A DNA stretch of 32,250 bases from Propionivibrio sp. (GTDB lineage Bacteria > Pseudomonadota > Gammaproteobacteria > Burkholderiales > Rhodocyclaceae). Under the pieces are notes generated by a model. That model did not search any database and was not told the DNA's origin. It was given only the letters and a program-made list of their open reading frames with translations. A program made the translations under genes and the position numbers. The stretch lies in NCBI GenBank assembly GCA_016705685.1, contig JADJLB010000011.1, positions 1-32,250 on the forward strand, written 5' to 3'. Each line of letters begins with the position of its first letter. Position 1 is the stretch's first letter. This document shows positions 6,101 through 28,941 of this stretch, one piece after another.

Positions 6101-8249
6101 ATGTTCAAGACTCTAGCGCGCCTCGTCTTCAAGGCACTGTTTCGTGTCCAGGTCAGCGGACAACCCAGCACATTCATCAACCCCAGGACGCTGATCGTCG
6201 CCAACCATGAATCCTTCATCGACGGTCTTCTCCTTGGCCTGATGATGCCGGTCGATGCGGTTTTCGTCGTGCATACGCAAATCGCCAACCGTCCCATGTT
6301 TCGTTTCATGCTGCGTTTTGTTCCGCACCTGGCGGTCGATTCAACCAGTCCGCTGGCGATGAAGCAGATCGTCAAGCTGGTGGAAACCGGGCAGCCTGTC
6401 GTGATTTTTCCGGAAGGCCGGATCACCAAGACCGGCTCGCTGATGAAAGTATATGACGGAGCTGCCTTCGTTGCCGCCAAGACCGGGGCCACCATCGTGC
6501 CGGTGCGCATTGACGGCGCCGCGCGCAGCTATTTCGGCAGGTTGGCCGGTGTCTACCCGCGCAAGCTATTTCCCAAAGTAACCATTTCGATCCAGCCGCG
6601 CCGCCATATTCCCATGCCCGACCTGCCCTCCGCCAAGCTGCGCCGTCGTCGCGCCGGAGAACTGCTGAGGCAGATCCTGCTCGACATGCTGGTCGCCACA
6701 CGCCCGCAACGGACCGTGTTTGAAGCCTTTCTGGATGGCAAGGCCACCTTTGGCGCGCATTACAAGCTGGTGGAGGATGTTCGTCTGGTCGAAGAATCCT
6801 ACGGTTCCCTGCTCAAGATGGCGCTCGGAATGATGCGCCTGATGTCCCGTCTGACCGCACCGGGGGAAGTCGTCGGCGTGCTGACGCCCAATGCGGCGCC
6901 GACACTGGGCCTGGTGCTCGCGCTATCGGCAGGCAAACGCATCCCTGCGCTGCTCAACTATACGGCCGGCCCGGATGGCTTGCAGGCCGCCTGCATTGCC
7001 GCCGACATCAAGACCGTCATTTCGTCCAGAGGCTTTCTGGAGAAAGCCCGACTCACGCAGGTCGTCGAGAAACTGTCCGGCATTCGCGTTGTGTATCTCG
7101 AAGACCTCAAATCGACGATCGGCTTGAGCGACCGCTTGTGGGTACTCTGGCATCTTGTTTTCCCCGCAGGGGCCGCGCTGGCGCAGACGCCGGACGATCC
7201 GGCGATCGTACTCTTCACTTCGGGATCGGAAGGCAAGCCCAAAGGCGTTGTCCATTCGCACACCTCGGTACTCTCAAACGTCGCACAGATACGCGCAGTT
7301 GCCGATTTCACGCCGCACGACAAGTTCATGATGGCCCTGCCACTGTTCCATTCGTTTGGTCTGACCTGTGGCGTCCTGCTGCCGCTGGTGTCCGGCTGCA
7401 AGGTATTCCTCTACCCGAGCCCCCTCCACTACCGGATCATCCCGGAGATCGTCTATGACCGCGACTGCACGGTGCTGTTCGGCACATCGACCTTTCTCGG
7501 CAACTACGGCAAATTCGCCCACCAGTACGATTTCCGGACGCCTGCGCTACGTCGTTGCCGGTGCCGAGAAATTGTCCGAAGACGTCCGCAAGCTGTGGAT
7601 CGAGAAGTTTGGCATCCGCATTCTGGAGGGTTACGGCGTGACAGAATGCGCGCCGGTGGTGGCTGTCAACGTGCCGATGGCCTGCCGCATCGGCAGCGTC
7701 GGGCAACTCCTGCCCGGCATGGAATACGAACTTGAAGCGGTTCCCGGGATCGAGCATGGCGGCGCGCTGCACGTGAAGGGACCCAATGTGATGATGGGAT
7801 ACTTTCTCTACGACCAACCCGGCGTCATACAACAACCGCAATCGAAAGGCCCTGGCTGGTATTCGACCGGCGATATCGTCGAACGCGACGACGACGGGTT
7901 CCTGCATATTCGTGGACGCCTGAAACGCTTCGCCAAGATTGCTGGCGAAATGGTCTCGCTTGAGGTGGTCGAAAAGCTAGCTGCGCTGGCGGCCCCCGAA
8001 TTTGCCCACGCCGCATCGACGCGCGCCGACGCCGCCAAGGGCGAAGCGCTGGTGCTGTTCACGACCGCCCCCGAACTGCGTCGCGAACACTTGCTGGCCG
8101 CTGCCAAAACCACCGGCTCGCCCGAACTGGCCGTGCCGCGAGTTATCCAGAAAATCGCTGCGATCCCGCTGCTCGGCTCCGGCAAGACCGACTATGTCAC
8201 GTTGAAGAAAATGTCGGAAGCATCGGCTGACGAAATGACGAGCGCCTGA
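6101..8249 (+). pseudogene. aas: Aas-like bifunctional acyltransferase / acyl-ACP synthetase, one frameshift
   Basis: The locus spans about 716 codons, like E. coli Aas (719). The N-terminal PlsC acyltransferase domain shows NHESFID (35-41, catalytic H36 and D41) and FPEGR (103-107). The AMP-forming ligase domain shows FTSGSEGKPKG (372-382), then, after the shift, [20 protein letters not shown], the [14 protein letters not shown] acidic loop and the [15 protein letters not shown] hinge. Known Aas enzymes activate a fatty acid on acyl carrier protein and transfer it to 2-acyl-lysophospholipid in the inner membrane. The single shift lies at 7535-7538, where four bases (CGGA) stand in place of three between YDF and RLRYVV, so the two halves are in different frames. 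The ATG at 6101 follows GGGGA. It is 35 bases upstream of the LplT-like gene. Confidence 0.88.
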
Positions 8250-15760: not shown

Positions 15761-16338
15761 TTAGCGGCTATGCGCCACGTCGGCGAGAAACTCCGTATAG
15801 ATTTTGCCGAGGGCCTGTTCCATCGCCACGGCGAATGCGCCCAGCGAATCGTCGCTGGCGGGCTGCTCCACCTGATAGGTTTTGTTCAATCGTGTCTTGC
15901 CCCCCGCCAGCAGCTGCAGCTCAAGCGCGACGACGGCCTTGCTGTGCTGCCCGGATAGCACCCGTTCAAACTTGACGATGCGCCCGTCAAGCGCATACGG
16001 CGCATTGCTGTCGCCCTTCAGATCAAGTGCGCTGCCCAGGCTGGCCTTGAAATGCTCCTGTACGATTTGTGCAGGCGGATACAGCCACAGGTGGTAGTGA
16101 TACTGGCGTAACTGGCGCAGGCTGGCTTCATCGCTGTAGACGATCGGTCGTTCCGCGTAAAGACTGTCAGCGCGGAAGGCGTTCACGGCAACGGCGCCGG
16201 GCAAGGACGTGGCTGCCGGGGCGACGTGCGCGGGCTGCAGGCGATAGAAACGGTCGGTCGGCGCCGCGGCACGCTGCCGCAGGCGGCGAGCAACAAGAGC
16301 AAACCGAAAGACCAGAGTGTTTTGTTCAGTCGCTTCAT
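15761..16338 (-). pseudogene. ABC-type transport auxiliary lipoprotein, PqiC-like, one frameshift
   Basis: Outer-membrane lipoprotein partner of the MCE transporter, about 192 residues. The start ATG at 16338 overlaps the MlaD stop by four bases (ATGA) and gives MKRLNKTLWSFGLLLLLAAC, a clear lipoprotein signal with lipobox LAAC. One indel within GTGCCGCGGCGCC (about 16262-16275) then separates this from the frame with the mature domain. That domain contains PTDRFYRLQPA, VNAFRADSLYAERPIVYSDE, LRQYHYHLWLYPPAQ and VEQPASDDSLGAFAVAMEQAL, all typical of PqiC/auxiliary lipoproteins. A continuous but unsupported upstream frame (MQEQRNEATEQN) lacks any signal and is rejected as the start. Confidence 0.82.
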
Positions 16339-17213
16339 TTCGCTGCTCCTGCATCGTCGGTTGGCGGTCGGCTCTGGATCAGCGCGGCCGGATTCTCGCG
16401 TATGGTGCGCGAGAACTCGTTGATGTTGCGCCCGGCCGATTCAAGCTGATAGAGCGTCGCATCGATGCGCCGTATCGAGTCCTTCAAACCTGTACCGCCG
16501 TTGGTGACAATGCCGCGGGTATCCTTGACCAGATCTTCGACTTCGGCACGCACCGTGGACAGATCGGCCAGCAGCTTCAGCGCATTGGCCGAAGCGCCAT
16601 CGGCGTTCTGCAGCAGCCGGCTCCAGTGCTGCACGTTCTGATCGCTGAACAAGGTGTCGATACGCCCCGCCGTACGGTTGATGCGCTCGATGGTCGAGCG
16701 CATGTCGGCCATCGCCGGCGCCACGTTGCGGTTGATCTGAACGAGCATCGGCTTGATTGTGGATTCGGTAATCTGGCCCAATTCGGTGGCCAGCGCAGCG
16801 ACCGACTCCATCAAATTGGCGCTGCTGCTGCCGGGAATATCGCCCCCTGCCGCCAGAATGTCGCTGCCGCCGCCCTCCTTGATCTCGACCAGCGGCGCAC
16901 TGAGCAATCCCGGCGTGGCAATCAGGGCGCGGCTATCGACCGGGATGCTCACCGGCTTTCTCAGGTTGAGCGTGATGCGATACGCCGTGCGCTTGTCGCG
17001 CGTCACCGGCTCGACCTGCGCCACATTGCCAACCTCGAATCCCTCGTAGGTCACCACCGTGCCCTCCTTGATGCCGGCGACATTGGCAAAGTGCGTGTAG
17101 ACATCGCCCTTGGCACTGTGCCCGGTAATCCGGTACAAGGCGTAGAGCAGAACGCCGGCCATCAGCAGCACAAAACTGCCGACCAGCAGGTAATTGACGT
17201 TGTCGCGTTTCAT
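16335..17213 (-). CDS. mlaD: MlaD-family (MCE domain) substrate-binding subunit
   Basis: This 292-residue inner-membrane-anchored periplasmic protein has a transmembrane anchor (about 8-28, YLLVGSFVLLMAGVLLYALY). One MCE domain follows (about 38-115: VYTHFANVAGIKEGTVVTYEGFEVGNVAQV through ALIATPGLLSAPLVEIKEG). A long helical tail (about 130-275) is predicted to form coiled coil or a needle, longer than in E. coli MlaD (183). MCE proteins form hexameric channels carrying phospholipids between membranes. It overlaps the PqiC-like gene by four bases and starts 16 bases after the MlaF stop. Confidence 0.93.
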   Translation of the reverse strand: MKRDNVNYLLVGSFVLLMAGVLLYALYRITGHSAKGDVYTHFANVAGIKEGTVVTYEGFEVGNVAQVEPVTRDKRTAYRITLNLRKPVSIPVDSRALIATPGLLSAPLVEIKEGGGSDILAAGGDIPGSSSANLMESVAALATELGQITESTIKPMLVQINRNVAPAMADMRSTIERINRTAGRIDTLFSDQNVQHWSRLLQNADGASANALKLLADLSTVRAEVEDLVKDTRGIVTNGGTGLKDSIRRIDATLYQLESAGRNINEFSRTIRENPAALIQSRPPTDDAGAAK

Positions 17214-17229
17214 TCGTTGTGCCTCATGG

Positions 17230-18030
17230 TCAGGAAATCTCCCGGGTCAATCGTTCCATATATTCCTCGGGGTTGATGGCTTCGTTTCTCGGGGTACGGT
17301 TAAGCAGGGACTGGATGCGCGGGTTATCGCTGGCGCGCACGGCGGCAACCGTATCCGACATCAGGATGCGGCCCTGGTCGAGCACCGTGATCCGGTCGGC
17401 GATTTTGAAGGCGCTCTCCAGTTCGTGCGTCACCACGACGATCGTCATGTTCATGGCGTCGCGCAGGATCAGGATCAGATCGTCCAGTTCGGCGGAAACC
17501 ACCGGATCGAGCCCCGCCGACGGCTCGTCAAAGAACAGCAGGCGCGGGTCCATGACGATGGCGCGCGCCAGCGCCGCACGCTTGATCATGCCGCCCGACA
17601 ACTCCGATGGCATGAGACTCTCGAAGCCGGCGAGATTGACCACTTCAAGCTTCATGCGGCTCATGATGCGCATGGTATTTTCGTCGAGCTTGGTATGTTC
17701 ACGCAAAGGCAACTCGACGTTCTCGCCGACGGTCATCGAATTGAACAAGGCACCGCCCTGAAAGGCCACGCCCATGTTCTTGCGCAGGTCGTACATTTCG
17801 TCGGCACTCAAGCGGGTGATGTCCTTACCGAGCAGCTTGATGCTGCCCGAGGTGGGCTGGTGCAGGCCGAGCAGATGGCGCAACAGCGTGCTCTTGCCCG
17901 AACCGCTGCCGCCCATGATGACCATGATCTCGCCCTGCCGCGCCTGGAAGCTGATGTCGTCGAGAATCTTCCGGGGCCCGTAGTGGGTGACCAGATGGTC
18001 GACGTCGATGGCAAGGTCGGTAGTCGGCAT
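17230..18030 (-). CDS. mlaF: MlaF-family ABC transporter ATP-binding protein
   Basis: Cytoplasmic ATPase of the MCE transporter, 266 residues from the start MPTTDLAIDV at 18030; an upstream in-frame start at 18063 lies in repeat-associated DNA and is unlikely. Motifs are Walker A GGSGSGKST (40-48), Q-loop QGGALF (91-96), signature LSGGM (144-148), Walker B LLFFDEPSAGLDP (164-176) and the switch histidine in THELESAF (H202). GGALFNSMTVGENVELPL is characteristic of MlaF. It forms a complex with the MlaE permease encoded upstream and possibly with the STAS protein, as E. coli MlaF does with MlaB. Confidence 0.93.
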   Translation of the reverse strand: MPTTDLAIDVDHLVTHYGPRKILDDISFQARQGEIMVIMGGSGSGKSTLLRHLLGLHQPTSGSIKLLGKDITRLSADEMYDLRKNMGVAFQGGALFNSMTVGENVELPLREHTKLDENTMRIMSRMKLEVVNLAGFESLMPSELSGGMIKRAALARAIVMDPRLLFFDEPSAGLDPVVSAELDDLILILRDAMNMTIVVVTHELESAFKIADRITVLDQGRILMSDTVAAVRASDNPRIQSLLNRTPRNEAINPEEYMERLTREIS

Positions 18031-18045
18031 TAGAAACAGAACCTC

Positions 18046-18207
18046 TTTAAACACGGAGGACACAGAGACACAGAGTTCGCAGAGTTCGCAGCGAACGAAA
18101 TCTTTAAATCCCTTGGGCCATTTTCCCCATCCATCATCTTCTTTTTCATTCCCGAAGCTTCTCTCCGTGATCTCTGTGTCTCCGTGCCCTCAGTGTTGAA
18201 GGCGTTT
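18046..18207. repeat. Imperfect long inverted repeat (CACGGAG/CACAGAG type) inside the mla operon
   Basis: Left arm about 18049-18075 (AACACGGAGG, ACACAGAGAC, ACAGAG). Right arm about 18161-18197 is its reverse complement with two or three mismatches and one gap. The arms enclose about 85 bases containing two tandem GAGTTCGCA units and a GTTCGC-A-GCGAAC palindrome. It fills the 175-base space between mlaE and mlaF and touches the mlaE stop codon. Similar CACGGAG/CACAGAG-rich intergenic repeats are common in some proteobacterial genomes (recalled, not checked). It may be a nonautonomous mobile or REP-like element. Confidence 0.7.
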
Positions 18208-19002
18208 AGCGGCTGGTAAGGAATGTAAATACCATATCCGCGAGGATGATGCCGATGCACCCAAGCACCACCGCGCGCGTTGTCGCCCGCCCACGCCCTC
18301 GGCGCCGGCATTCACGTTGAAGCCGTTGGCCGCGCCGATGAGGACGATAATCACGGCAAAAATGAAGCTCTTGAGCACGCCATGAATCACGTCGTCGACG
18401 ACCAGCACTTCGAAAACTCGATCGAAGAATATGCCAATCGGCAGACTCAGTTCGCCGGCGCAATACAGCGCCCCACCAAACAACGCAACCAGGTCGGACA
18501 GAATGGTCAATGCCGGCAGGGTCAGCAACATGGCGGCCAGCAGCGGCGCCACCAGATAGCGCACCGGGTTGATTCCGATCACGCGCAAGGCGTCGATTTC
18601 CTGCGAAATCTGCATGGTGCCGATGCGCGCCGCGATGGCCGAGCCGGAACGCCCGGCGACGAAGATCCCGGTGATCAGCGGGGCAAACTCGCGCGTCACC
18701 GACAAGGAGATACCGAGCACCACCTGCCCCTCGGCACCGAAGGTGCGCAGCGTATAAATGCCTTGGATGGCCAGCATCATCCCGGTGGCGAAGGAGGCCA
18801 GCGCGACGATGGGAATCGCATTTACGCCAACGCCGATGGCTTCCTTGAACACCGCGCCCAGGCGCACCGGCTGACGCCGCCAATGACCGAGCAGCAGCCA
18901 GTAAAACGCCTCGACCATCAGCGCGGCGTGATAGCCGACTTCCCGGACCACTTGCAGGCTGCGCTGGCCGACTTGCGAGACGAATGACAGGACGGCGTTC
19001 AT
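18206..19002 (-). pseudogene. mlaE: MlaE-family permease, one frameshift near the C-terminus
   Basis: Inner-membrane permease of the MCE transporter, about 265 residues. Landmarks are AVFKEAIGVGVNAIPIVALASFATGMMLAIQ (50-80), REFAPLITGIFVAGRSGSAIAARIGTM (104-130) and QEIDALRVIGINPVRYLVAP (134-153), the EIDALR/P segment being the family's hallmark. The main frame runs off after GFNVNAGAEGVG. Inserting one C in GTGGGCGGGCG (about 18286-18292) restores GRATTRAVVLGCIGIILADMVFTFLTSR, the normal ending. A sequencing deletion is the simplest explanation. It lies 60 bases after the STAS gene and 175 bases before mlaF, the gap being filled by an inverted repeat. Confidence 0.88.
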
Positions 19003-19062
19003 GCGTATCGGGGAAAGGGTGAAGGCGGCGTTTGACGATTGAGCGCCGGAATCATGCCTGGC

Positions 19063-19398
19063 TCAAACCACGTCATCTAGCGAGGCATGAATCGGGAATA
19101 CCTTGTCGAGCCGCGCCAGCTTCAGCACGTTCATCGCCGGTTGCGCGACTGCCACCAAGGCGAAATCCATGCCCTGCTTTCTGGCCGCCTGATACCCTTC
19201 GACCAGGCTGGCGACGCCGGAACTATCCATATAACTGACTGCCGAAAGATCGATGAGCAACGGCATTTTCTTCTTGAGGCAATCGAGAATGACCTCGCGT
19301 GCACTGGGTGACGAATGCAGGTCAACATCGCCGGAAAGGCGAACTACCATGTACGGCGTCCGGAATTCGATTTGTATATCCACTTGCTTCCCCCTCAT
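19063..19398 (-). CDS. STAS-domain protein (SpoIIAA-type anti-sigma antagonist / MlaB-like)
   Basis: This 111-residue single STAS domain protein carries VVRLSGDVDLHSS (18-30) and the phosphoacceptor region VSYMDSSGVASLVEGY (54-69); DSSG at 58-61 matches the SpoIIAA/RsbV phosphorylation loop. Its ATG overlaps the kinase stop by four bases. However, GGGGG followed by GTG at 19383 (giving VDIQIEFRTPYM) may be the real start. Known relatives have two roles: phosphorylation-switched antagonists of anti-sigma kinases, or MlaB, the STAS subunit bound to MlaF. Position supports both: it lies directly after an RsbW-like kinase and directly before mlaE. Which role applies is not shown. Confidence 0.88.
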   Translation of the reverse strand: MRGKQVDIQIEFRTPYMVVRLSGDVDLHSSPSAREVILDCLKKKMPLLIDLSAVSYMDSSGVASLVEGYQAARKQGMDFALVAVAQPAMNVLKLARLDKVFPIHASLDDVV

Positions 19399-19805
19399 GA
19401 GATACGCTTGGTCAGTTGCAGGCAGTTTGCATAACCCTCCGGCGCCGGCCGGTAGGCCACCCCGTCCATCAATTCGCGCATGAACCGTACGCCCAGCCCG
19501 CCGGGCCGCAGCTCGTGCAATTCCCGTGGGCGCAAATCCTCATCTTTTGCAGGTAGGCCATTATCCAGCAATTGCACCATCAATACGTCATCATTAACGC
19601 CCATGCGCAGCGTGAAGCCCTGTCCGGCGGCAAACCCGTAGCCATGCTTGATGATATTCATGCACGCCTCATTGATCGCCAGCACCACCTGCTCGCTCGC
19701 TTCCTCGGTGCAATGCGCGCGCTGGCACGCCTCGCGCACCGCCGCACGAACCGCCGACAAATCCTCGGTACGCGCTGGAAATGTCCGGTCGAGCAGCTCG
19801 GCCAT
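19395..19805 (-). CDS. RsbW/SpoIIAB-like serine kinase (HATPase_c_2)
   Basis: A 136-residue GHKL-fold ATP-binding protein of the anti-sigma kinase type. The N-box is NEACMNIIKHGY (45-56), the G1 box LLDNGLP (79-85) and the G2 box PGGLGVRFM (101-109). Family members phosphorylate a STAS partner and sequester a sigma factor or another target. Its start shares one base with the phosphatase stop (TGATG) and its stop overlaps the STAS start by four bases, so phosphatase, kinase and STAS should be made together. No sigma factor gene is present in the window. Confidence 0.9.
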   Translation of the reverse strand: MAELLDRTFPARTEDLSAVRAAVREACQRAHCTEEASEQVVLAINEACMNIIKHGYGFAAGQGFTLRMGVNDDVLMVQLLDNGLPAKDEDLRPRELHELRPGGLGVRFMRELMDGVAYRPAPEGYANCLQLTKRIS

Positions 19806-21073
19806 CAGCCGATCACCAGCAGCGTCAGGTCGTCGCGCAGGCGCACGCCGGGATGGACCAGCGTCTCGACCACGCGTTCGAGCTGTTCGGCGGGCGGCCG
19901 AAGCGAATACTTGTCAAGCAGCGCCTTCAGGCCGAAGACTTCCAGCATTCTGCCGTCCGCCGACCAGCCTTCGGTCACCCCATCGGTAAACAGATAGAGC
20001 CGTCCGCCATCGAGCTTCAAGCGCTGGTCGGTATAGGTCATGCCCGGCAGAATGCCAAGCGGCGGCGAGGATTCTTCAAGCTCGCGATACGTTCCCGACC
20101 GGCTGCGATAGAGCGGCGGCTGATGTCCGGCGTTGGCAAACAGGATTTCGCCATTGGCCGGGTTGCACTCCCGGCCGCCATCGTCACGAACATGCCGCGA
20201 CTGGCGGTTTCGGCAAGTTCGTCGTTAAGTATGGCCAGCAACTGCGCCGAATCGTGCACCGTCTTGCCGAGGCAGCGAAACAGGCTGATCGTCTTGGCCA
20301 TCAGCATCGCCGAATTCATTCCCTTGCCCGACACATCGCCCAGCCCCCAGGCGATGCGACCGTCGGCCAAGGTGAAGAAATCGTAAAAATCGCCGGAGAC
20401 CTCCAGCGCCGACAGATTCAGTCCATGGATAGGAAAATCGTCCGCGGGTTGGTCGGGCAGCAGGTTGCGCTGAATCTCGCGCGCCAGATCGAGCTCTCGG
20501 CGCATGCGCTCCTGCTCGACCAGCGCTTCGGTCATCTGCGCATTGTGCACGGCCAGCGAAACCATGCCGGCCAGCACCTGCAGGAAGCGCTTGTCCGCCG
20601 GATCGAAAAGACCGTCGCCCTTGCGCTTGTTGATCACCTCCAACGCGCCCAGCATACGCCCCTTGACCATCAGCGGCGCGCACAGGATGGAACGGGTCGT
20701 GAAACCGGTGCGGTCATCGACGGCGGTGCTGAAATCCCCGTCGGCCGACACGTCGCGCACCATCTGGACGGCATTTTCGGCCAGCGCACGGCCGACGATG
20801 CCCTGATTCCTGGCGATGGTCAGGCCCTTGATCGAGACCGGCCCGGCGCAAGCCAGGCAAGTCAAGGTCTCGCCCGCCGCGTCGAGCAGGAAGATCGACG
20901 ACGCCTCGGTATCCATGTAGCTCATGATCTGCTGCACCGCATTGGCCAGCGTCTGGCTCATCTCCGGGCGCGCCGACGAAATCCTGGCTGATTGCCAGGA
21001 GCAGCTCCATATCGCCCGTCAACCGGGAATTGGCGTTGTTGTCGGCCAGTTGCTTGGCGTGTTCGATCGACAC
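19805..21073 (-). pseudogene. GAF-domain PP2C (RsbU/SpoIIE-type) phosphatase, two frameshifts
   Basis: The locus is about 422 codons. It starts at a GTG (21073, giving MSIEHAKQLADNN) with an N-terminal helical region, then a GAF domain (TLANAVQQIMSYMDTEASSIFLLD through MLGALEVINKRKGDGLFDPADKRFLQVLAGM). A linker helix ELDLAREIQRNLLP leads to the SpoIIE/RsbU domain, with metal-binding acidic residues in VSGDFYDFF and WGLGDVSGKGMNSA, then NAGHQPPLY and FTDGVTEGWS, and DDLTLLVIG at the end. Shifts lie at a three-A run (20979-20981) and at CCC (20170-20172), where one more C restores ECNPANGEILFANAGHQPP. Such phosphatases dephosphorylate STAS antagonists in response to the sensory domain. The GAF ligand is unknown. 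Confidence 0.88.
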
Positions 21074-21129
21074 TGCAGGAAGCTCCGGTGCGTCATGTTG
21101 CAGGAAGACGCATTATCCTTGATTCGGCT

Positions 21130-21792
21130 TTAGAGCGGGCGTCGATAGACCGCAAAGAAATGCGGTACGGGCGGATCCTGATCGTCGTCGTAGGCGACAA
21201 AATGTCTCTCGATCAAACCGGCACGCAGGAAGCCCTCGATCTCATCCCGATCCAAAGCCAGAGGAAAAGAATCAAGTTGTTCGCCCGCATTCCGGCTGCG
21301 ACAGGACACCAGGATTTCGCCGCCGGGAGCAACCAGATCCGAGATGGCTGCCAGCGCTTCAGCCCGACTCGGACCCACCAGAATCTGGATCGTGTTGCAC
21401 TCGTATACCAGATCGAATCCCTGCGACCACGACACCGGAAGATCGAACAGATCGGCGACCCGGTAGTCCACCGTGCTGCCGGGATAGCGCTGCCGGCACA
21501 TGGCGATGGCCGACGGGGAGATGTCGAAGGCCGTAACCCGGTAGCCATGCTGCGACAAGGCTTCGGCATCGTCGCCCAGTCCGCAGCCGATGGTGATCGC
21601 CCGGGTGCCAGCAGAGGCATCTCTCGTCTTGATCCAGTCGAGCAGCAAGGGGTTGGGTTTCAGGTCGGCCCAATATACCTTGCAAATATCGCCGCCGGCT
21701 CGGGCATAGAACGCTTCAAACCAGCCGTTGGGATCATCCCGATCGGCGTATTCCCTGGCCAGACGTTGCGTTGCGCTTTTTGGATCTTCCAT
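21130..21792 (-). CDS. Class I SAM-dependent methyltransferase, TPMT-like
   Basis: A 220-residue cytoplasmic enzyme. SAM-binding motif I is AITIGCGLGDDAEAL (65-79), with the motif II acidic residue Asp90 in VTAFDISPSAIA. FDLVYECNTIQIL (motif IV region) and LVAPGGEILVSCR follow. The opening WFEAFYARAGGDICKVYWADLKPNPLL and the overall layout resemble the thiopurine methyltransferase family, whose bacterial members methylate thiols, selenium, tellurium or other small compounds. It lies 56 bases upstream of the phosphatase gene on the same strand and may be cotranscribed, without an obvious functional link. Confidence 0.85.
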   Translation of the reverse strand: MEDPKSATQRLAREYADRDDPNGWFEAFYARAGGDICKVYWADLKPNPLLLDWIKTRDASAGTRAITIGCGLGDDAEALSQHGYRVTAFDISPSAIAMCRQRYPGSTVDYRVADLFDLPVSWSQGFDLVYECNTIQILVGPSRAEALAAISDLVAPGGEILVSCRSRNAGEQLDSFPLALDRDEIEGFLRAGLIERHFVAYDDDQDPPVPHFFAVYRRPL

Positions 21793-21927
21793 GGTCAGCG
21801 GTATGTCATTTCGCGGAGCTTGTTACGTTCATTGAAACCGATCTTGCGAGTCTAACCCTGATCGCGCTCTCCGACACGCCGACCGCACACATCGGCATCG
21901 CCACACCAGGCGACGACGGCCGGCCGC

Positions 21928-22575
21928 TTACCGGGCGGTGACTTCAAGGCCTTTATCCACGGCACGCGGGTTGCACGACCCGCCGTTGGGCCAATAGCAA
22001 GCACCGGCGAACTCCCGGTTGCCGATGATACTGTCGAGGTAGTCCGCCAGCGTGGCTGGCGAAACCAGCCACACATTCGGCACCGATTCAAAGGGACCGA
22101 TGCCGCTGAGGATATTTTGTACGCGGGCGGCGCAAAAAAGTGGCATGGTGCTCCCGGCCTGGTCGACGCGTGCCTCGATCTGCCTGAACTGCTCAGCGGT
22201 CAAGGCGAAGCGATAGAGTTTGACTACCGGGCCGTCTTCCAGCTGAAAGCGCACATAGTCCCGCAGGCTGATGCCGGGCCAGTGCGAATCGAGACCACGC
22301 GTTCCCATGTAGCTGCCCGCCGGGTCCAGCAAGCGATCCGCGGCAAACATCCCGGAATGGACCATTTTGGCATTGTCGTTGATCACCACGATCACTTCCC
22401 GAGATCCCGGCTCCGGAACGTCGAGATGATCCGGATAGCCGTTGCCGATTCGCGGTGCCGGCGTATCCGGGATGCTATGAACCTGGGCACAGGCGGCAAG
22501 CGCCAGAACGCAGGCAGCCATCAGCACGCCGCCAAGAAAGCGTGTCCAATTGCGCAGATCGGTCAAGCCGGTCAT
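21928..22575 (-). CDS. Lipoprotein of unknown function, possible permuted papain-like fold
   Basis: 215 residues from MTGLTDLRNW (22575), 11 bases after the preceding OYE gene. The signal peptide ends at lipobox LAAC (26-29). The mature part shows VIVVINDNAKMVHSGMFAADRLL with His73 and PLFCAARVQNILSGIGPF with Cys148. An N-terminal histidine in a VHSGMF-like turn followed much later by a cysteine is the layout of permuted NlpC/P60 (YiiX/DUF4105-like) enzymes, but the similarity is weak and activity is inference. Four further cysteines near the C-terminus could form disulfides. The frame continues open upstream into the neighbour, but the lipobox fixes this start. Confidence 0.7.
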   Translation of the reverse strand: MTGLTDLRNWTRFLGGVLMAACVLALAACAQVHSIPDTPAPRIGNGYPDHLDVPEPGSREVIVVINDNAKMVHSGMFAADRLLDPAGSYMGTRGLDSHWPGISLRDYVRFQLEDGPVVKLYRFALTAEQFRQIEARVDQAGSTMPLFCAARVQNILSGIGPFESVPNVWLVSPATLADYLDSIIGNREFAGACYWPNGGSCNPRAVDKGLEVTAR

Positions 22576-22586
22576 CGCCCCAGGAT

Positions 22587-23846
22587 TCAGACGGTCGCTT
22601 CGCGGGCCAGCATGGCGTCTTTTTCCGCTTTGACCGTCGGGTGATAGCACTCCGCGGGTTGAGCGCCCAAATGGCCGACGCAGGCATTGCAGTCGACGCA
22701 TCGGGGGCCGGGCTGGTTGTCGCGAAGATGTCGGTAAATGTACGGGTCGGCGATGAAGGCGCGACCGGCCGAGACCGCGTCGCACTTGCCCTGGCTGATC
22801 GCCGCCTCCATCGCTTCGCGCGTGCGAAAACCTCCGACGCATATCACCGGAATCGCCAGCTGTTTCTTGAATTGCGGCGTGTAGTCGAGGTTATAGCCCT
22901 GGCGCCCTTTCCAGAGCAGATTCGAGGCCAGCGTGACCAACGGCCTGAACACTTGCAGCAAGGTGCGGCGCAGCGGCGGCAGGTAACTCATGCTGCCCTT
23001 GAGCATGTTGCGCAGGCACTGGTCGAACGTACCGCAGACCATCGGAAAACCTGACTCATAATGCCCAACGGATATCTCCACGGCGTCTATGCCCTCGCGC
23101 TGCAGCAGCGTTGCTGCTTCGACCAGCTCGCCGGTGTGCAGACCATCGCGCAACGGCAGCCAGTCCGAGCCGTTCATTTTGACGATCACCGGAAAGTCCG
23201 GGCCGAGGCGCGATCGAATGGCCTGGATGATCTGGCGGATGAAGCGCGTGCGGTTCTCCATCGAACCGCCATACTCGTCGCTGCGCCGGTTGGTATAGGG
23301 CGTCAAGAACTGGCTGAGCAGGTAGCCGTTGGCCGAATGCAGTTGAACGCCGTCGAAGCCGGCACGCCGGCAGCGCTCGGCGGCATCGGCGAACTGCCCG
23401 ACCAGGCGCTGGATCTCTTCGACGGTCAGCGCCTGCGGCTTGGTGCCGGTCAGCAAGTCCTTAACGTCGGAAGCCGAGTATGCCACCGGCGATTGGGCAA
23501 AACGGGGGACCACCTGACGCCCGCAGTGGTTGAGCTGCGCAAAGAATTTGGCGCCCTGCGCATGCACGGCATCGACGACCCTGGCCAGAGCGGGAATCTT
23601 GTCGTCATGGTCGGCGCCAAGTTGCAGCGGCGCCGATTTTCCTTCGCGGCAGACGTAGATATTGCCGGTAATGATCAGTGGCGTGCCACCACGCGCAATC
23701 GGCACATAGAATTCAACCACCGCGTCGGTGGCAAAACCACCACATGTGCCACGCGTTTCGGCGGTGGCGGTCTTGAACAGACGGCCCGGCAGGACAAGCG
23801 GGCCGATGCCGATGGGACTGAAGAGTACGCTGTTTTGTGGCGACAT
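22587..23846 (-). CDS. Old-yellow-enzyme family NADH:flavin oxidoreductase
   Basis: A 419-residue FMN-dependent TIM-barrel oxidoreductase. Family landmarks are FSPIGIGPLVLPGRLFKTA, FFAQLNHCGRQ, AERCRRAGFDGVQLHSANGYLLSQFL, NRRSDEYGGSMENRTRF and the phosphate-binding VICVGGFRTREAMEAAISQGKCDAVSAGRAFIADP. The C-terminus carries four cysteines at 383, 386, 389 and 400 (CVDCNAC then C), like the Fe-S cluster ligands of the longer 2,4-dienoyl-CoA reductase group, but without the extra FAD/NADH domains. The electron donor and substrate are unknown. It is followed by the lipoprotein gene after 11 bases. Confidence 0.88.
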   Translation of the reverse strand: MSPQNSVLFSPIGIGPLVLPGRLFKTATAETRGTCGGFATDAVVEFYVPIARGGTPLIITGNIYVCREGKSAPLQLGADHDDKIPALARVVDAVHAQGAKFFAQLNHCGRQVVPRFAQSPVAYSASDVKDLLTGTKPQALTVEEIQRLVGQFADAAERCRRAGFDGVQLHSANGYLLSQFLTPYTNRRSDEYGGSMENRTRFIRQIIQAIRSRLGPDFPVIVKMNGSDWLPLRDGLHTGELVEAATLLQREGIDAVEISVGHYESGFPMVCGTFDQCLRNMLKGSMSYLPPLRRTLLQVFRPLVTLASNLLWKGRQGYNLDYTPQFKKQLAIPVICVGGFRTREAMEAAISQGKCDAVSAGRAFIADPYIYRHLRDNQPGPRCVDCNACVGHLGAQPAECYHPTVKAEKDAMLAREATV

Positions 23847-23921
23847 GGCAGGCTCCTCTCGGTTGCGTTGCTCAGTACATGCGGCAGTTCAAGTCTGTGC
23901 GGAAATACCGAACGGAATGGT

Positions 23922-24407
23922 TCAGGCACTTTCCAGCCAGTGCGACACAATTGTGCGAATCAACCCAAGGCGCCCAAAGTCGTAGGTCGCCAGCTGCTCG
24001 GGTGAAACCCGTCTGACCTCGGCGATTTCGTCGTTCAACGTCACCTGACCGTACGCTTCGACGGCATAAGCGATGATCAGTTGATTGAATCTGGGGTGCG
24101 GATAATGGCCGATGAACTGGCACGCGCTGCCCTTGAGGCCAAGCTCTTCTTCCGTCTCCCTGAGAATCGCGCTCTCGGGCGATTCACCCTGCTCCAGGAA
24201 GCCGGTGATCATGGAGAATATGCCTTCCGGCCAGGTGGCATTTCTCGCCAGGACGTACTGGCCCTCGTTCCGCACCAGACCAGCAACCACCGGGATGGGA
24301 TTGTTCCAGCTGACGAACTGGCACTGCACCGACGAACACGCCAGGCGCACGACGCCGTCCACAGGGCGGCTTTCAAGATCGCTTCGGCAAAGAGGACAGT
24401 ATTTCAT
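23922..24407 (-). CDS. Nudix hydrolase with N-terminal zinc ribbon
   Basis: 161 residues from MKYCPLCRSDLESR at 24407. A short zinc-ribbon-like segment (Cys4, Cys7, Cys24, Cys29) precedes the Nudix domain. The Nudix box GFLEQGESPESAILRETEEELGL (69-91) fits G-x5-E-x7-REUxEExGU exactly, so metal-dependent pyrophosphate-bond hydrolysis is expected. A zinc ribbon before the Nudix box is also found in NudC-type NAD/RNA-decapping enzymes, but the NudC SQPWPFPxS motif is absent, so the substrate is open. An in-frame upstream start (24458) would add residues before the first cysteine and is less likely. Confidence 0.9.
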   Translation of the reverse strand: MKYCPLCRSDLESRPVDGVVRLACSSVQCQFVSWNNPIPVVAGLVRNEGQYVLARNATWPEGIFSMITGFLEQGESPESAILRETEEELGLKGSACQFIGHYPHPRFNQLIIAYAVEAYGQVTLNDEIAEVRRVSPEQLATYDFGRLGLIRTIVSHWLESA

Positions 24408-24490
24408 CGGCGCATCGTGCCAGGAACGAATTGGAAGATCAAGGCGAAAAAATGGCAAGGGGACGTATCGCCTTCCACACGCCGGTGCGC

Positions 24491-25307
24491 TCAGTGCGCA
24501 CGAGCCAGCATGACGATACCGGCAACCATGCAGGCCGTACCGACGATACGCGATGGAACAAAGGCTTCACGCAGCAGTCCGGCGGTGAAACAACCCGACC
24601 AGCATCGAGACTCGCACCGGCGCAATAACTGAGCGGCCATCGCAGCAAATAGCACAAGCGTGTAGGACAACGGAGAAGCAACCCGACGGCAACAATGTAT
24701 CGGCTGTTTAGCCGCCATTGGGCTTTAAGACCCAGCCTCCGAGCGCCAGCGGTGCAGATCTCCGATGGCAAGACCGAGGGCGAAAGACCGCGCCACACCG
24801 AGCGTCTTGACGGCCCACCAATAGCGCAGGTCATCCGGGAGGGTTCCCCAGACGACCCCGCTCGCGCCTTTGGTGGCAAGGAATGAAACACGGGCGGCTC
24901 CCGCCATCAGGGCAATGCCCGTCAAGACTGCGAAGATACCCAACCATCCAAGAAAACTGGGCGATTCGTTCAGAACGACTATCGCACCAAACACGGCAAA
25001 CAGAGGCCCCGTCCCGCGGGCCAAGGGGTAAACAACCGAAAATTCGCCTTCGCGATAACCCTTCTGCAGAACCAGCGAATACACCACATGAACGATCGCT
25101 GCCTATGATCGCGATCCATGCCTGAACGGTAAGTTGATGCGCGTTGGTGAACCAGGAAGACAACCCGAATGGAGCGGCAACAACCAGGCTGACCAATCCA
25201 AACAGCCACACAAACGGCAAGCCGCCAGACGCCTTCTTGGCGAAGTAGTTCCAAAGCGCATGACATAATGCGCCGGCAACGACAAGGCTGAGCGCATCTG
25301 AGTTCAT
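24491..25307 (-). pseudogene. EamA/DMT-family transporter, multiply frameshifted
   Basis: The reconstructed product is a drug/metabolite transporter with about ten hydrophobic segments. The N-terminus is MNSDALSLVVAGALCHALWNYFAKKASGG at 25307. After an indel near 25100 the frame continues YSLVLQKGYREGEFSVVYPLARGTGPLFAVFGAIVVLNESPSFLGW, which contains the family's typical RG...P and E. Further disruptions between about 24720 and 24840 lead to a third frame with SPLSYTLVLFA and LLREAFVPSRIVGTACMVAGIVMLARA. Unlike the single homopolymer shifts elsewhere, segments of the fifth to eighth helices look missing or scrambled, so real decay is possible. Confidence 0.75.
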
Positions 25308-25346
25308 TGACTATCGTCAGACACCGCCCGCTTGCCAGTAAGTCGC

Positions 25347-25628
25347 TTACTCATCGTAATACGAACCCGAGGGCGGACCCGCCAACAAGGGCATCACCAC
25401 AGCAAATTTTTCAGGAGGGATGTTCTTTACCGAGGCCTGATGCGCAGCGACGGACGTCCACACCTCGATGATCACGAATTCATTGACGTTGTCCTGGTGT
25501 TGAAGCAATTGACACGATTCGCAACCTGGCGACTGCTCGATCAGCGGAAGGATTGAAACCAGAAATTCGCGCAAGCTGTTTGACAAACCTTCTTTGGCGC
25601 GGAAGGTGTTAATACGTGTAATGCTCAT
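25347..25628 (-). CDS. Antibiotic biosynthesis monooxygenase (ABM) domain protein
   Basis: 93 residues from MSITRINTFRAKEG (25628), preceded by AGGAG with a suitable gap. A single ferredoxin-like ABM domain: N-terminal strand ITRINTFRAKEG, helix LREFLVSILPLIEQSPG, strands CESCQLLQHQDNVNEFVIIEVWTS and helix AAHQASVKNIPP. The EVW motif with an N/H-rich helix is common to YgiN/HmoA-like proteins, which act on quinones or heme, or have unknown substrates. A longer in-frame extension upstream has no family similarity and overlaps the next gene. Confidence 0.85.
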   Translation of the reverse strand: MSITRINTFRAKEGLSNSLREFLVSILPLIEQSPGCESCQLLQHQDNVNEFVIIEVWTSVAAHQASVKNIPPEKFAVVMPLLAGPPSGSYYDE

Positions 25629-25666
25629 CGAATACTCCTGAGAAGGAACCGCTTGAAACGTTGTCG

Positions 25667-25987
25667 CTAGTTCCAGTGCGGTGAAGTGACAATTATCATC
25701 AGCGCGAAGAGGCCGTAGAGCAGCCCCGGAACCGCCAGAATGGCGAGCACGGCTATCGCCAGACCGGTCCGGCCGTGCATGTGCAAACGGTGCCCAAGAA
25801 ACAGAATCGCCGCGGTTGCCGAGAGCAGGGAAAGCCACAGGCTCATGTTGAATGAAGAAACCGATCCGTCTCCGATTCCGACAACGAAGAAACCCGCCGC
25901 CAGTGCGGTCACAAGGGCAGCGATCGCGAAGGTGGCCCAGTAAATGACACGACGCGGAGACGTTGGTGAAGATGCCGATGAATTCAT
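25667..25987 (-). CDS. Small three-helix membrane protein (osmoprotectant transporter permease-like annotation)
   Basis: 106 residues from MNSSASSPTSPRRVIYW (25987). There are three to four hydrophobic segments: YWATFAIAALVTALAAGFFVVGIGDGSVSSFN, LWLSLLSATAAILFLG and LAIAVLAILAVPGLLYGLFALMIIVTSP. The G-DGSVSSFN loop and the VPGLL-GLF segment with a terminal PxWN recall a conserved small protein often named osmoprotectant transporter permease, a name with little functional support. It lies 38 bases upstream of the ABM gene and is probably cotranscribed. Confidence 0.7.
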   Translation of the reverse strand: MNSSASSPTSPRRVIYWATFAIAALVTALAAGFFVVGIGDGSVSSFNMSLWLSLLSATAAILFLGHRLHMHGRTGLAIAVLAILAVPGLLYGLFALMIIVTSPHWN

Positions 25988-26111
25988 GGAAGACTCACTG
26001 AAACAGGTACTGTTTTTGGCCGCACGAGCAGGGGCTAAGAACGTGGCAGAAACGCATTTCATAGGCGTATTGGCGAGCCCAGGATGCGCCATTTCAAAGA
26101 AGCAAAGCCAA

Positions 26112-26444
26112 CTATTCAATGGGGGTCACAATGACGGCGGTGCCATAGCAAAGCACTTCGGTCAGACCCGCCATGAGCTCGGTTGCGTCGTAACGCATTC
26201 CGATAATCGCATTGGCTTTGAGCGATTGGCCATGCTGCCGCATGAGTTGAAATGTCTCCGAGCGAGCACGTTCACAAAGCGCAGTATAGATGGTGATATT
26301 GCCGCCAAACAGCGATTGAATGCCACCAAGAAAGTTGCCGATGATCGACCGGGAGCGAACCGTAATCCCTCGAACCACGCCAAGATTCTTCGTGATTCGG
26401 TAACCTGGCAGTTCGAATGCTGTAGTAATCATTGAGTTGTCCAT
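26112..26444 (-). CDS. YbjQ/UPF0145 family protein
   Basis: 110 residues (or 106 from the second ATG at 26432). It has the family core ITTAFELPGYRITKNLGVVRGITVRSRSI, then LCERARSETFQLMRQHGQSLKANAIIGMRYDATEL, ending in CYGTAVIV. The Y-GTAV end and GANAIIG-like strand identify the UPF0145 (YbjQ) fold, which is a pentameric beta protein of unknown function. No motif suggests catalysis. The 270 bases upstream (26445-26715) contain no recognisable gene. Confidence 0.88.
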   Translation of the reverse strand: MDNSMITTAFELPGYRITKNLGVVRGITVRSRSIIGNFLGGIQSLFGGNITIYTALCERARSETFQLMRQHGQSLKANAIIGMRYDATELMAGLTEVLCYGTAVIVTPIE

Positions 26445-26715
26445 GGTCTCTCCGTATTCAAAAATTCGTTAAAGGGCAATCGTTGATGAATGGTTGTGCT
26501 GATTGAGGTTCGAAAGCCGTGCGCGGAACCCAAGACGCGCTCTCGTGGGTCGAATCGACGGCTGGCTTCCGCTTAAAAGCGCAAACACGCTGCGCGGCCT
26601 GCAACAGAAACTCGACCTTCACTGCATCGAGCGGAAATACGATGCTGCCTCTATCCGTACGATTCAGAACGCCTGCGCTAATCTTAGTAGCTATGCAACG
26701 GATATTGACGGAGAC

Positions 26716-27020
26716 TCACGCATGAACCGCTTGTGCCACCAGCTTCACCCCAGAGCCGTACAGACGCGGCTGATAGTATCGAAGCGCGGCTGAGCATCGG
26801 GTCGTAAGGCTCTGTAAAGTGCTTCACGAGTAATTCCGGAAGCGCGGGCGATCTCGCTCATTCCACGCGCACGAGCAATATCACCGAGCGCCGCAGCCAG
26901 TAAGGCGGGATCGTTCTCTTCCAGAATAACAGTGAGATATGCTGCCATATCGTCTTCGTCTTTCAGATGTTCTGCGGGATCGAAATCAGGAAGGTCAGCG
27001 ATACGAATTTTCTTGGTCAT
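26716..27020 (-). pseudogene. HigA-type antitoxin (addiction module antidote), C-terminal frameshift
   Basis: The main frame from MTKKIRIADLPDFDPAEHL (27020) runs 91 residues to a stop at 26745. It has the helix-turn-helix typical of this antidote family: LGDIARARGMSEIARASGITREALYRALRPDAQPRF. A four-G run (26748-26751) truncates the ending to CTALG; one more G would give ALGVKLVAQAVHA, the usual ending, with a stop at 26716. It begins three bases after the toxin stop, so toxin precedes antitoxin, as in HigBA. The antitoxin should bind its own promoter and neutralise the toxin. Confidence 0.88.
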
Positions 27021-27023
27021 GAT

Positions 27024-27320
27024 TCATTCCTCCATCATGGCCGCAAGTTTCACGGCCTTGGCAATATCGGCGGACTGTGTAGACTTGTCGCCGCCGCCGA
27101 GCATTACGATCAATGTTTCACCCCGCTGAATGTAGTACATGCGCCATCCCGCGCCGAAATGTTCGCGCATCTCGACGACACCATCGCCGACAGGCCTTAC
27201 ATCGCCCAGGTTGCCCAGCATCGCCTTGCGCAAGCGAACATTGAGTCGCTGCCGGGTAATCCGGTCTTTCAGGCCATCCAGCCAAGTAGAAAATACATCG
27301 GTGCGTTTGATCGAGAACAC
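27024..27320 (-). CDS. HigB/RelE-type toxin (addiction module killer protein)
   Basis: 98 residues of the RelE/ParE superfamily. It begins with FSTWLDGLKDRITRQRLNVRLRKAMLGNLGDVRPVGDGVVEMREHFGAGWRMYY and ends ADIAKAVKLAAMMEE. VGDGVVEMREHFGAGWRMYY is the family's central sheet with the basic/aromatic residues used for ribosome-dependent mRNA cleavage. GGGDKSTQSADIAKA is the typical C-terminal helix. It is followed by the antitoxin with a 3-base gap. The upstream 96 bases to the alkene reductase gene should hold the promoter; no operator was recognised. Confidence 0.9.
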   Translation of the reverse strand: MFSIKRTDVFSTWLDGLKDRITRQRLNVRLRKAMLGNLGDVRPVGDGVVEMREHFGAGWRMYYIQRGETLIVMLGGGDKSTQSADIAKAVKLAAMMEE

Positions 27321-27416
27321 GCTTAAACTGTAGTCGTCTGGTTACACCTTGTCAACTGCTCAATCAGCAAGGTGAAGACGGGGCATAAGGATGGTTGGCG
27401 CCCTTCTCAACGATCA

Positions 27417-28497
27417 TCAGCTTGGACAGGAAGACATCTCCAGCAAATCGAGCGTCGGATAGTCGATATATCCTTTGCTTCCGCCTTGGTAGAACGTTGT
27501 CGTATCCGGCGGGTTGAGCGGTGCGTTTTGGCGAAAGCGTTCGGGCAGATCGGGGTTGGCGATATACGCTTGACCGAACGCTACGGCATCGGCGTCGCCG
27601 TTGGCGATCGCTTGTTCGGCCGATTCCTTGGTAAATTGTTCGTTCGCAATAAGCACACCACCGAAAGCGGCTTTGATTGTTTTACCAATACTGTCCGGCC
27701 CGAGATACTCGCGCGTGCAAATGAATGCGATCTTGCGTCGGCCGAGTTCAGCTGCAACATGGCCAAACGTGGCGGCCGGATTGGAATCGCCCATCGAGTG
27801 CTTGTCTCCGCGCGGCGCGAGGTGCATGCCGACGCGCTGACTGCCCCAGACGCCGATGACGGCATCCGTGACGTCCAGTATCAGGCGCGCTCGATTTTCG
27901 ACGCTGCCGCCGTAGTCATCGGTGCGGCGGTTCGTGCTGTCCCTGGAGGAATTGATCCAGCAGATAGCCATTGGCGCCGTGAATTTCCACACCGTCGAAA
28001 CCCGCGGCTTTCGCATTTTCCGCGCCTTGCCGATAGGCTTCGATGATTCCGGGAATCTCGTCGCGTTCGAGCGCTCGCGGAGTCACAAAGGGCGTCTCGG
28101 GGCGAACCAGACTGACATGGCCTTCCGGGGCGATCGCGCTGGGCGCCACCGGCAACTCGCCCTTGAGGAAGAGCGGATGCGAAATGCGGCCCACATGCCA
28201 AAGCTGCAGAAAAATGCGGCCGCTCTTCTGGTGCACTGCCTGGGTGATCAGCTTCCACCCTGTCACTTGCTCGGCTGACCAGATGCCGGGCGTTTCGGCG
28301 TAGCCCACGCCTTGCGGCGTGACCGAGGTCGCTTCGGTGATGATCAGCCCCGCGCTCGCACGCTGCGCGTAGTATTCGGCCATCAGGGAATTTGGAACAC
28401 GCACCGCTCCGGCGCGGCTGCGGGTCAACGGTGCCATCACAATACGGTTCGGCAACAATAAATCGCCGACACGCAAGGGATCAAAAAGAGTCGTCAT
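27417..28497 (-). pseudogene. nemA: Alkene reductase, NemA/OYE class, one frameshift
   Basis: About 360 residues. FMN-dependent reductase of activated alkenes and nitro compounds. It starts MTTLFDPLRVGDLLLPNRIVMAPLTRSRAG (Thr25 near the flavin) behind AAAGGACC. It carries LQLWHVGRISHP, the catalytic pair His173/Asn176 in EIHGANGYLLDQFL, NRRTDDYGGSVENRARL, MHLAPRGDKHSMGDSNP and the phosphate loop GDADAVAFGQAYIANPDLP. A CCC at 27941-27943 (one base too many) separates DQFLQ from DSTNRRTDD; the rest is intact. It is divergent from an ArsR-type regulator, a common arrangement for electrophile-responsive reductases. Confidence 0.9.
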
Positions 28498-28581
28498 GAG
28501 ATAGGTCCTTTTTTAATAGTTCATAAATACGGTACAACAGGATTATTGAAAAAGCAACGGTATCGGGTACCCTTACGATCT

Positions 28582-28941
28582 ATGAGTCGACCCCTAGCGC
28601 ACCCGAATAGCGAAGACATCACCGTGGCGGGCATTCTGCACGCCCTCGCCGACCCGGTACGGCTGGCCATCGTCAGCGAACTGCTGAAAGCGGAAGCCGG
28701 TTTGAACTGCACGCAAATGACCGACCGGCTCGAAGTCGACATGCCGAAATCAACCTGCTCTCAGCACTATCGCATTCTGCGAGAGTCGGGTTTGATCGTC
28801 AGCGAACGCAAAGGCGTGGAACTCACGAGCCGCGTGCGCCTGCGCGAACTGGAGACGCGATTCCCCGGATTACTCCAATCGATTCTCAAAGCGCACGAAC
28901 AGGAAACGACGAAAACTAGGCGGCGAGGGCGTGGCGGATAG
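28582..28941 (+). CDS. ArsR-type winged-helix regulator, divergent from nemA
   Basis: 119 residues from the ATG at 28582 (MSRPLAHPNSED); an in-frame TTG at 28546 would place the start inside the promoter region. The winged helix has ILHALADPVRLAIVSELL, MTDRLEVDMPKSTCSQHYRILRESGLI (recognition helix) and SERKGVELTSRVRLRELETRFPGLL. No CxC metal motif of classical ArsR is present, though Cys residues in NCTQ and STCSQH could sense electrophiles. It probably controls the divergent alkene reductase. A perfect GGGTACCC palindrome (28565-28572) lies just before the start. Confidence 0.85.
   Translation: MSRPLAHPNSEDITVAGILHALADPVRLAIVSELLKAEAGLNCTQMTDRLEVDMPKSTCSQHYRILRESGLIVSERKGVELTSRVRLRELETRFPGLLQSILKAHEQETTKTRRRGRGG

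Follow-up and report, generated by a model that had tools for sequence, protein, structure and literature searches.

A partner-switching module encoded with an MCE-type lipid transporter, and probably controlling it, in Propionivibrio sp. and other Gammaproteobacteria

The stretch of DNA analysed (hereafter the window) is the 32,250-nucleotide contig JADJLB010000011.1 of Propionivibrio sp. (assembly GCA_016705685.1), the whole of contig C11 in a genome of 17 contigs. Its minus strand carries seven consecutive genes, running from 21073 to 15761, in which a GAF-PP2C phosphatase, an RsbW-like kinase and a STAS protein are followed by MlaE-, MlaF-, MlaD- and PqiC-like components of an MCE-type lipid ATP-binding cassette (ABC) transporter. 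Comparison with relatives indicates that this switch, of a kind usually associated with the control of gene expression, is encoded consistently with the lipid transporter, a pump for lipids travelling from one of the cell's two membranes to the other, and probably controls it. It is considered likely, specifically, that the first three genes form a dedicated partner-switching module attached to the transporter, and that the STAS protein serves as MlaB for this particular clade of MlaF proteins and is subject to phospho-control.

The order, strand and identities of the seven genes (Table 1), as given in a preliminary description made from the sequence alone, were confirmed from the open reading frame (ORF) table, the sequence and Pfam matches, as were the successive spacings of a 1-base overlap, a 4-base overlap, 60, 175 and 16 bases, and a second 4-base overlap, the figure of 175 presuming that MlaE ends at 18206. 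What that description left unmentioned is that the frames of three of these genes are interrupted. The transporter operon has the PqiC-like lipoprotein at its end, and MlaC or MlaA partners were not found there by Pfam. The array stands above chance: of 272 genera sampled, 44 have the kinase, and the gene order recurs.

Table 1. Features of the partner-switching and transporter locus in the window
Feature	Position	Strand	Supporting match or observation
GAF-PP2C (SpoIIE/RsbU-type) phosphatase gene	19805..21073	-	Pfam GAF 2.3e-16; SpoIIE 3.3e-10, 3.8e-11 (pieces)
RsbW/SpoIIAB-like serine kinase, 136 amino acids	19395..19805	-	HATPase_c_2 7e-26; best PDB match RsbW 1.4e-9
STAS protein, 111 amino acids, proposed phospho-switched MlaB equivalent	19063..19398	-	Pfam STAS 1.3e-20
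Ser59 codon, candidate phospho-acceptor in Y-M-D-S-S-G-V-A-S-L-V-E	19222..19224	-	DSSG in 58 of 58 rows
MlaE-type permease (type A)	18206..19002	-	Pfam MlaE 1.7e-60
MlaF-type ATPase, 266 amino acids	17230..18030	-	ABC_tran 5.1e-34; 7ch8_I, 6xbd_I among best PDB matches
MlaF C-terminal extension, residues 244-266, with Tyr257 and Leu261	17233..17301	-	Counterpart of E. coli handshake/MlaB-docking helix
MCE protein, MlaD-like, 292 amino acids	16335..17213	-	Pfam MlaD 3e-14
PqiC-like lipoprotein (ABC_trans_aux)	15761..16338	-	Pfam ABC_trans_aux 2.2e-7

A sample of 369 Gammaproteobacteria genomes, searched with a kinase profile (A1) at a threshold of 1e-12, yielded a kinase match in 59 genomes, and the 58 best loci from outside the window's own genome, plus one second hit, were retrieved. 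A STAS gene adjoined the kinase gene in 57 of the 58, the only miss (L135) being a contig end, and MlaE and/or MlaF lay within 500 bp after the kinase in 52; of the remaining six, L121 and L135 are at contig ends, while L099, L136, L143 and L147 represent real absences. The PP2C gene was located upstream on the same strand in 51 loci, divergently in two, and was not found in five. Conservation of the linkage in relatives, named in the preliminary description as a check on its proposal, was therefore established for 52 of 58 loci, with co-occurrence in 58 of the 59 kinase genomes. A scan of named records gave an MlaE or MlaF match in 25 of 31 loci: among the others, the contig ends too soon in L168 and L183 but not in L167, and L190-L192 come from Chloroflexota, with kinase, STAS and PP2C present and no MCE matches. 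Two metagenome-assembled genome records titled Klebsiella pneumoniae, labels which may be wrong, hold respectively the whole cluster (L185) and PP2C, kinase and STAS with no MCE match (L167), the STAS identities to the window being 55% and 64% for the L167/L185 pair.

The association belongs to one group of kinases. In a tree of 105 rows (a quick search over 132 columns, with a small outside sample found using the module's own profile), 89 kinases formed a single group, with a Shimodaira-Hasegawa-like approximate likelihood ratio test (SH-aLRT) value of 96, which contained every MCE-linked row, while an MCE gene was nearby for none of the 16 kinases outside it. RsbW-type kinases in general were rejected as evidence of linkage: none of ten weaker matches among relatives (L011-L019 and L021; loci of 2.6-3.4 kb) had an MlaE or MlaF match at the locus, and the claim is confined to the one clade for that reason. 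A plasmid search with the kinase returned five records at 29-32% identity.

Co-occurrence was then counted irrespective of position, using two types of MlaE. Type A, that of the window (threshold 1e-50), was found in 46 of the 369 genomes, 44 of them with the kinase; type B, defined by a query from L129 at 300 bits or more, a cut set after the gap had been seen (next match 236 bits), was found in 24, of which 22 had the kinase; eight genomes had both. One or other type was present in 58 of the 59 kinase genomes and in 4 of the 310 others, a comparison, Fisher values included, in which shared ancestry is not corrected.

The strongest results are those in which switch and transporter co-occur unlinked, because neighbourhood alone cannot account for them. 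Twelve type-B operons (L206, L207, L209-L213, L218 and L220-L223) are unlinked to the module, and a profile search detected a STAS ORF in none of the 12, although 11 of the 12 genomes have the kinase; the same profile, as a control, found an MlaB-like gene in the other Mla operons L216 and L217, and none in L208. A further type-B operon (L219, genome G106) was excluded from the twelve because the start of the contig truncates its MlaE, and no STAS match was found there either. In G217 and G440 the single MlaE is of type B, and the kinase lies with STAS at another place. In G120, G268 and G404 the module retains MlaF beside STAS, with MlaE and MlaD at another locus, and in L112, L122 and L137 STAS stands directly against MlaF with no permease. 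Relatives of type B carry additional ORFs, identified as MlaA and MlaC by reading only.

The MlaF proteins that accompany the module are themselves distinct. In a quick tree search of 74 rows, all 66 members from type A and type B operons formed one group (SH-aLRT 97, branch 1.68), the rows outside it being four other Mla-type MlaF proteins, a fusion-type MlaF and three unrelated ATPases. A C-terminal motif, Tyr-[Leu/Met/Ile]-x-x-Leu, was observed in 65 of the 66, and Tyr257 and Leu261 were invariant in 19 of 19 sequences; the one member of the 66 without the motif belongs to G164 (L200), a genome in which the kinase search at 1e-12 gave no match and the operon has no STAS gene beside it. The model of the window protein has a coil followed by a helix at residues 254-262, with low predicted local distance difference test (pLDDT) scores. 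In E. coli, the MlaF-MlaB interface is where the corresponding MlaF extension (Tyr261, Leu265, Leu266) docks (PMC7367683).

The association extends beyond the class. A phylum sample of 398 genomes, searched with a broader kinase profile (A4) at 1e-10, gave matches in 45, the window's own genome included. L260 and L261, from other classes, retain the complete STAS-MlaE-F-D-PqiC order, and L262, the best match outside the own genome, has PP2C, kinase and STAS with no MCE genes on a 6.7-kb contig. In L263, from family f240 of another class, the order is MlaE, a 225-amino-acid protein with weak MlaF similarity only and no Pfam match, MlaD, a TPR lipoprotein, kinase, STAS and UbiD, so that the kinase and STAS genes there stand behind a different MCE operon. 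When longer stretches were taken for the f240 kinase, MlaD was located upstream in six of seven (L254, L256-L259 and L263), the exception being L255. The UbiD gene directly after STAS in this family was identified by Pfam in L263 (8555-10012), and similar ORFs in L254-L257 and L259 by reading.

The three switch proteins retain the residues expected of them. DSSG was present in all 58 aligned STAS rows, within Tyr-Ile/Met-Asp-Ser-Ser-Gly-Val/Ile-Ala-x-Leu/Met-Val/Ile-Glu, as the preliminary description had reported for the window; of the two serines which it proposed as phosphorylation sites, Ser59 is the better candidate, because the second serine is replaced by alanine in several STAS rows of the module clade from another class (f240), and the first is never replaced. 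The motif was rejected as proof of phosphorylation control, since the MlaB-like protein (DSSA) and a STAS-MlaE fusion (DSVG) of the same genome share its Asp-Ser, which is therefore not diagnostic. In the kinases, Glu was conserved in 60 of 60 rows, Asn in 59 of 60, Asp in 60 of 60 and Gly-Gly-Leu-Gly in 59 of 60, with Glu40 and Asp75 of the aligned domain invariant; these are taken to be the GHKL ATP-binding motifs. The PP2C residues D34 and D52 (55 of 55 rows) and D170, D220 and D221 (54 of 54) are presumably metal-binding. PP2C and kinase are fused into one polypeptide in 14 of the 58 class loci. GAF, suggested earlier as the sensor, is present in the window, but relatives have other input domains as well: of the seven module PP2C genes scanned, four had HDOD, two GAF and one a receiver domain.

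In E. coli, MlaB is required for MlaF to remain on MlaED, Thr52 of MlaB lies in the MlaF interface, a T52E substitution weakens the MlaF pull-down, and phosphoregulation of MlaB is named by the authors as an open question (PMC7367683, PMC5016091). Since a kinase and a PP2C phosphatase are encoded here beside a STAS protein in MlaB's place, the simplest model would have dephosphorylated STAS on MlaF as the active state, with the kinase turning transport off and the phosphatase turning it on. What the comparisons show is gene content and order, their conservation, the co-occurrence, the catalytic residues, and the MlaF clade with its C-terminal motif; STAS phosphorylation, STAS-MlaF binding, the sense in which control runs and the nature of the lipid are inferred. 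Unphosphorylated STAS would bind the helical subdomain of one MlaF and the C-terminal extension of its neighbour, and so bound may hold the ATPase on the permease, permitting transport. The kinase would phosphorylate Ser59 and/or sequester STAS, whereupon MlaF would be released and transport cease, until the PP2C enzyme, responding through its input domain (GAF in the window, HDOD or a receiver domain in relatives), stripped the phosphate and transport resumed.

A number of observations weigh against this model. G412 has the kinase and neither MlaE type; G164, G400, G106 and G333 have the transporter without the kinase, G333 (L218) nevertheless keeping the MlaF motif; and L268 has the kinase alone. 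The switch lacks an adjacent MCE gene, despite available sequence, in L099, L136, L143, L147, L167, L262 and L255, so that the switch may act on another target or from a distance. An MlaB-like protein that has no dedicated kinase also carries Asp-Ser. The AlphaFold2 model of STAS (pLDDT 92.4) is closest in Foldseek to TM1442, RsbV and SpoIIAA, at 5.5e-10 to 1.5e-8, as against 1.2e-4 for P. aeruginosa MlaB; NCBIfam mlaB scores the protein at 24 bits against a cut-off of 90; and the predicted fold has an extra strand (residues 103-104) and helix (107-110), whereas the minimal STAS fold of E. coli MlaB has neither strand 5 nor helix 4 (PMC7367683). E. coli T52A retains MlaF binding but abolishes ATPase activity (PMC7367683, PMC5016091), and Thr52 is therefore no simple on/off switch for binding. 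Lastly, three of the seven genes of the window copy are frame-broken (vide infra).

Four of the loci already noted share a setting. L099, L143 (part of L205), L147 and L200 lie near a DUF1841 or endonuclease III-like gene and convergent FHA-like and PP2C-like genes, names given mostly by reading (DUF1841 by Pfam for L200 only), and hold either the kinase-STAS pair without a transporter (L099, L143, L147) or a transporter without the module (L200), as if module or transporter had been lost. In G181, a 370-amino-acid HD_5 (HD-GYP-like) protein (L202, 5018-6130) precedes the type-A MlaE-F-D-PqiC operon in place of the kinase module, which is elsewhere, beside a type-B operon (L149).

The best surviving alternative is a classical partner switch, in which the kinase, as an anti-sigma factor or a binding partner of some other transcription regulator, controls expression of this operon or of other genes, STAS never contacting MlaF. 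Labels from NCBIfam and PDB names would make the pair RsbV/RsbW-like anti-sigma proteins; this assignment was considered and not adopted. In sequence and fold, STAS and kinase do stand nearest to RsbV/RsbW and SpoIIAA/SpoIIAB, the own genome offers 11 sigma region-2 matches as possible targets, and the kinase and STAS genes without an adjacent MCE gene in four of the 58 class loci, with L167, L255 and L262, fit such a role. None of the 11 is on C11, however, and with those sigma proteins as queries at 1e-5 no sigma-like ORF was found in the window or in 63 other loci, so that the earlier statement that the window has no sigma factor gene was borne out there and across all 64 neighbourhoods. 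The module also co-occurs with particular MlaE types even when unlinked, the 12 unlinked type-B operons have no STAS ORF, STAS stands directly against MlaF where no permease is present, and an MlaF clade with its C-terminal motif accompanies the module. A classical switch is accordingly judged unlikely, if the most serious of the alternatives.

A second alternative, for which the chances appear slight, is that MlaF is bound and inhibited directly by the kinase, in the way that RsbW acts on a sigma factor, and that unphosphorylated STAS removes the kinase, making STAS an anti-anti-MlaF rather than an MlaB. The expected genetics are identical to those of phospho-switched binding of STAS to MlaF, and the RsbV-like length and helices of STAS suit a kinase-facing role, which alone could explain its conservation. 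Against this, 65 of the 66 clade members retain the MlaF extension that docks with the STAS partner in E. coli, and no other MlaB-like ORF is present in twelve of the operons. That module and transporter merely co-travel, or remain neighbours by descent, is very improbable: block transfer would fit the patchy distribution within the genus described below, but not the unlinked co-occurrence across many families, the shuffled gene orders that keep the parts, or the association with different MCE operon types, another class included.

For STAS as a phospho-switched MlaB, as first proposed, the conserved linkage and the lack of a nearby sigma gene are thus favourable, and the existence of a separate MlaB-like gene is ambiguous. 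Such a gene, named in the preliminary description as a possible refutation, does exist in the own genome, but inside a separate, second Mla-type operon, read as MlaF, E, D, A, C, B, in which the STAS gene was identified by profile and has the DSSA motif. The genome also encodes the STAS-MlaE fusion (C4, L214; DSVG), which resembles the window cluster in tying STAS to MlaE and in its MlaF-, MlaD- and PqiC-like genes, but differs in that STAS is fused, no kinase or PP2C match occurs in the 12-kb stretch, and its MlaF lies outside the clade with a different C-terminus.

Comparable systems in other organisms share parts of this arrangement. E. coli MlaFEDB (PMC7367683, PMC5016091, PMC7790496) likewise has MlaE, MlaF with a C-terminal extension, an MCE protein and a STAS partner with a Ser/Thr at the position of the phospho-serine of SpoIIAA, whereas the window STAS is RsbV-like in length with its own kinase and PP2C, and its operon has a PqiC-like lipoprotein in place of MlaC, in a genome with the separate Mla-type operon. 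The RsbU-RsbV-RsbW and SpoIIE-SpoIIAA-SpoIIAB switches (PMC8256260) share the sensor PP2C, GHKL kinase, STAS Asp-Ser-Ser-Gly and overlapping genes, but no sigma factor was found near the window module, where the conserved neighbour is an ABC transporter. The Brucella abortus chimeric Mla-Pqi system (Mpc; PMC12436622), to judge by the title, combines Mla-like and Pqi-like parts as MlaE-F-D and PqiC-like do here. In Vibrio fischeri SypA-SypE (PMC10120452, PMC4517449) a serine kinase likewise regulates a STAS protein, and the output is not a known sigma factor, but that output is biofilm formation, with no transporter cluster.

The combination of a partner switch with an MCE transporter appears to be new, as the preliminary description had supposed: no paper in the open-licence literature was found joining MlaE with RsbW, RsbV with MlaB, or partner-switching with an ABC transporter and phospholipid transport; among the matches listed from the wider open-licence literature, no title or abstract start described such a system; and the available text of two surveys of MCE gene neighbourhoods, in which STAS is listed, names no anti-sigma-type kinase and no phosphatase (PMC1810536, PMC5561183). 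Regulation of Mla-type transport, and phosphorylation of MlaB, stand in print as open questions (PMC7367683). With a conserved dedicated kinase and phosphatase beside the STAS-MlaF pair, the latter question is directly testable with three small soluble proteins. Were the model correct, partner switching would extend from transcription to an ABC transporter; outer-membrane lipid traffic would have a fast post-translational valve driven by interchangeable sensors; and a lipid pump would gain the phosphorylation control previously suspected by researchers and not found.

A more tentative proposal, rather less likely to be right than wrong, is that kinase, phosphatase, STAS and one MlaF constitute a portable signal-gated energy unit common to several MCE permeases, in which case a single phosphorylation event would switch more than one lipid route at once. 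L100, L101 and L127 each have two MlaE matches and one MlaF, with two MlaD in L100 and L127, and in G120, G268 and G404 the stretches retrieved around the separate permease operons contain no MlaF, no search having been made for another copy in the rest of those genomes.

Within the genus, window-type MlaE at 89% identity or more was found in five of 28 genomes, the own genome included, and the same five have the kinase at no less than 70% identity in identical gene order; among 99 relatives, a kinase at that level was confined to these five, while some MlaE was present in all 28. Among named records, the nearest that carry the cluster are three of Propionivibrio and one titled Accumulibacter. 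In the own genome, the only kinase matches at E 1e-3 or better were the window gene and a copy on contig C12. Positions 1-12000 of C12 (L028) align to window positions 18161-30145 at 91.8% identity with 455 gap positions, and a second, divergent cluster copy was ruled out: the contigs overlap, and C12 is an error-rich rendering of the same region.

The broken genes of the window are PP2C, split over three frames (from a GTG at 21073 to about 20960, 20961-20038 and 20041-19805), MlaE, with a frame shift near its C-terminus, and the PqiC-like gene, whose reading frame opens at 16338 and changes near the N-terminus. Each is a single intact ORF in all four congeners examined (L024-L027), with sizes of 422-428, 265-270 and 190-199 amino acids respectively. 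Two more window genes, at 6101-8249 and 27417-28497, appear by reading to be split. Because the congeners are intact, the C12 overlap is error-rich and these two other genes look split, assembly error is the more likely cause, and true decay of the window copy is correspondingly weakened as an explanation. The two further split genes are named, by reading only, as acyltransferase/AMP-ligase and old-yellow-enzyme-like.

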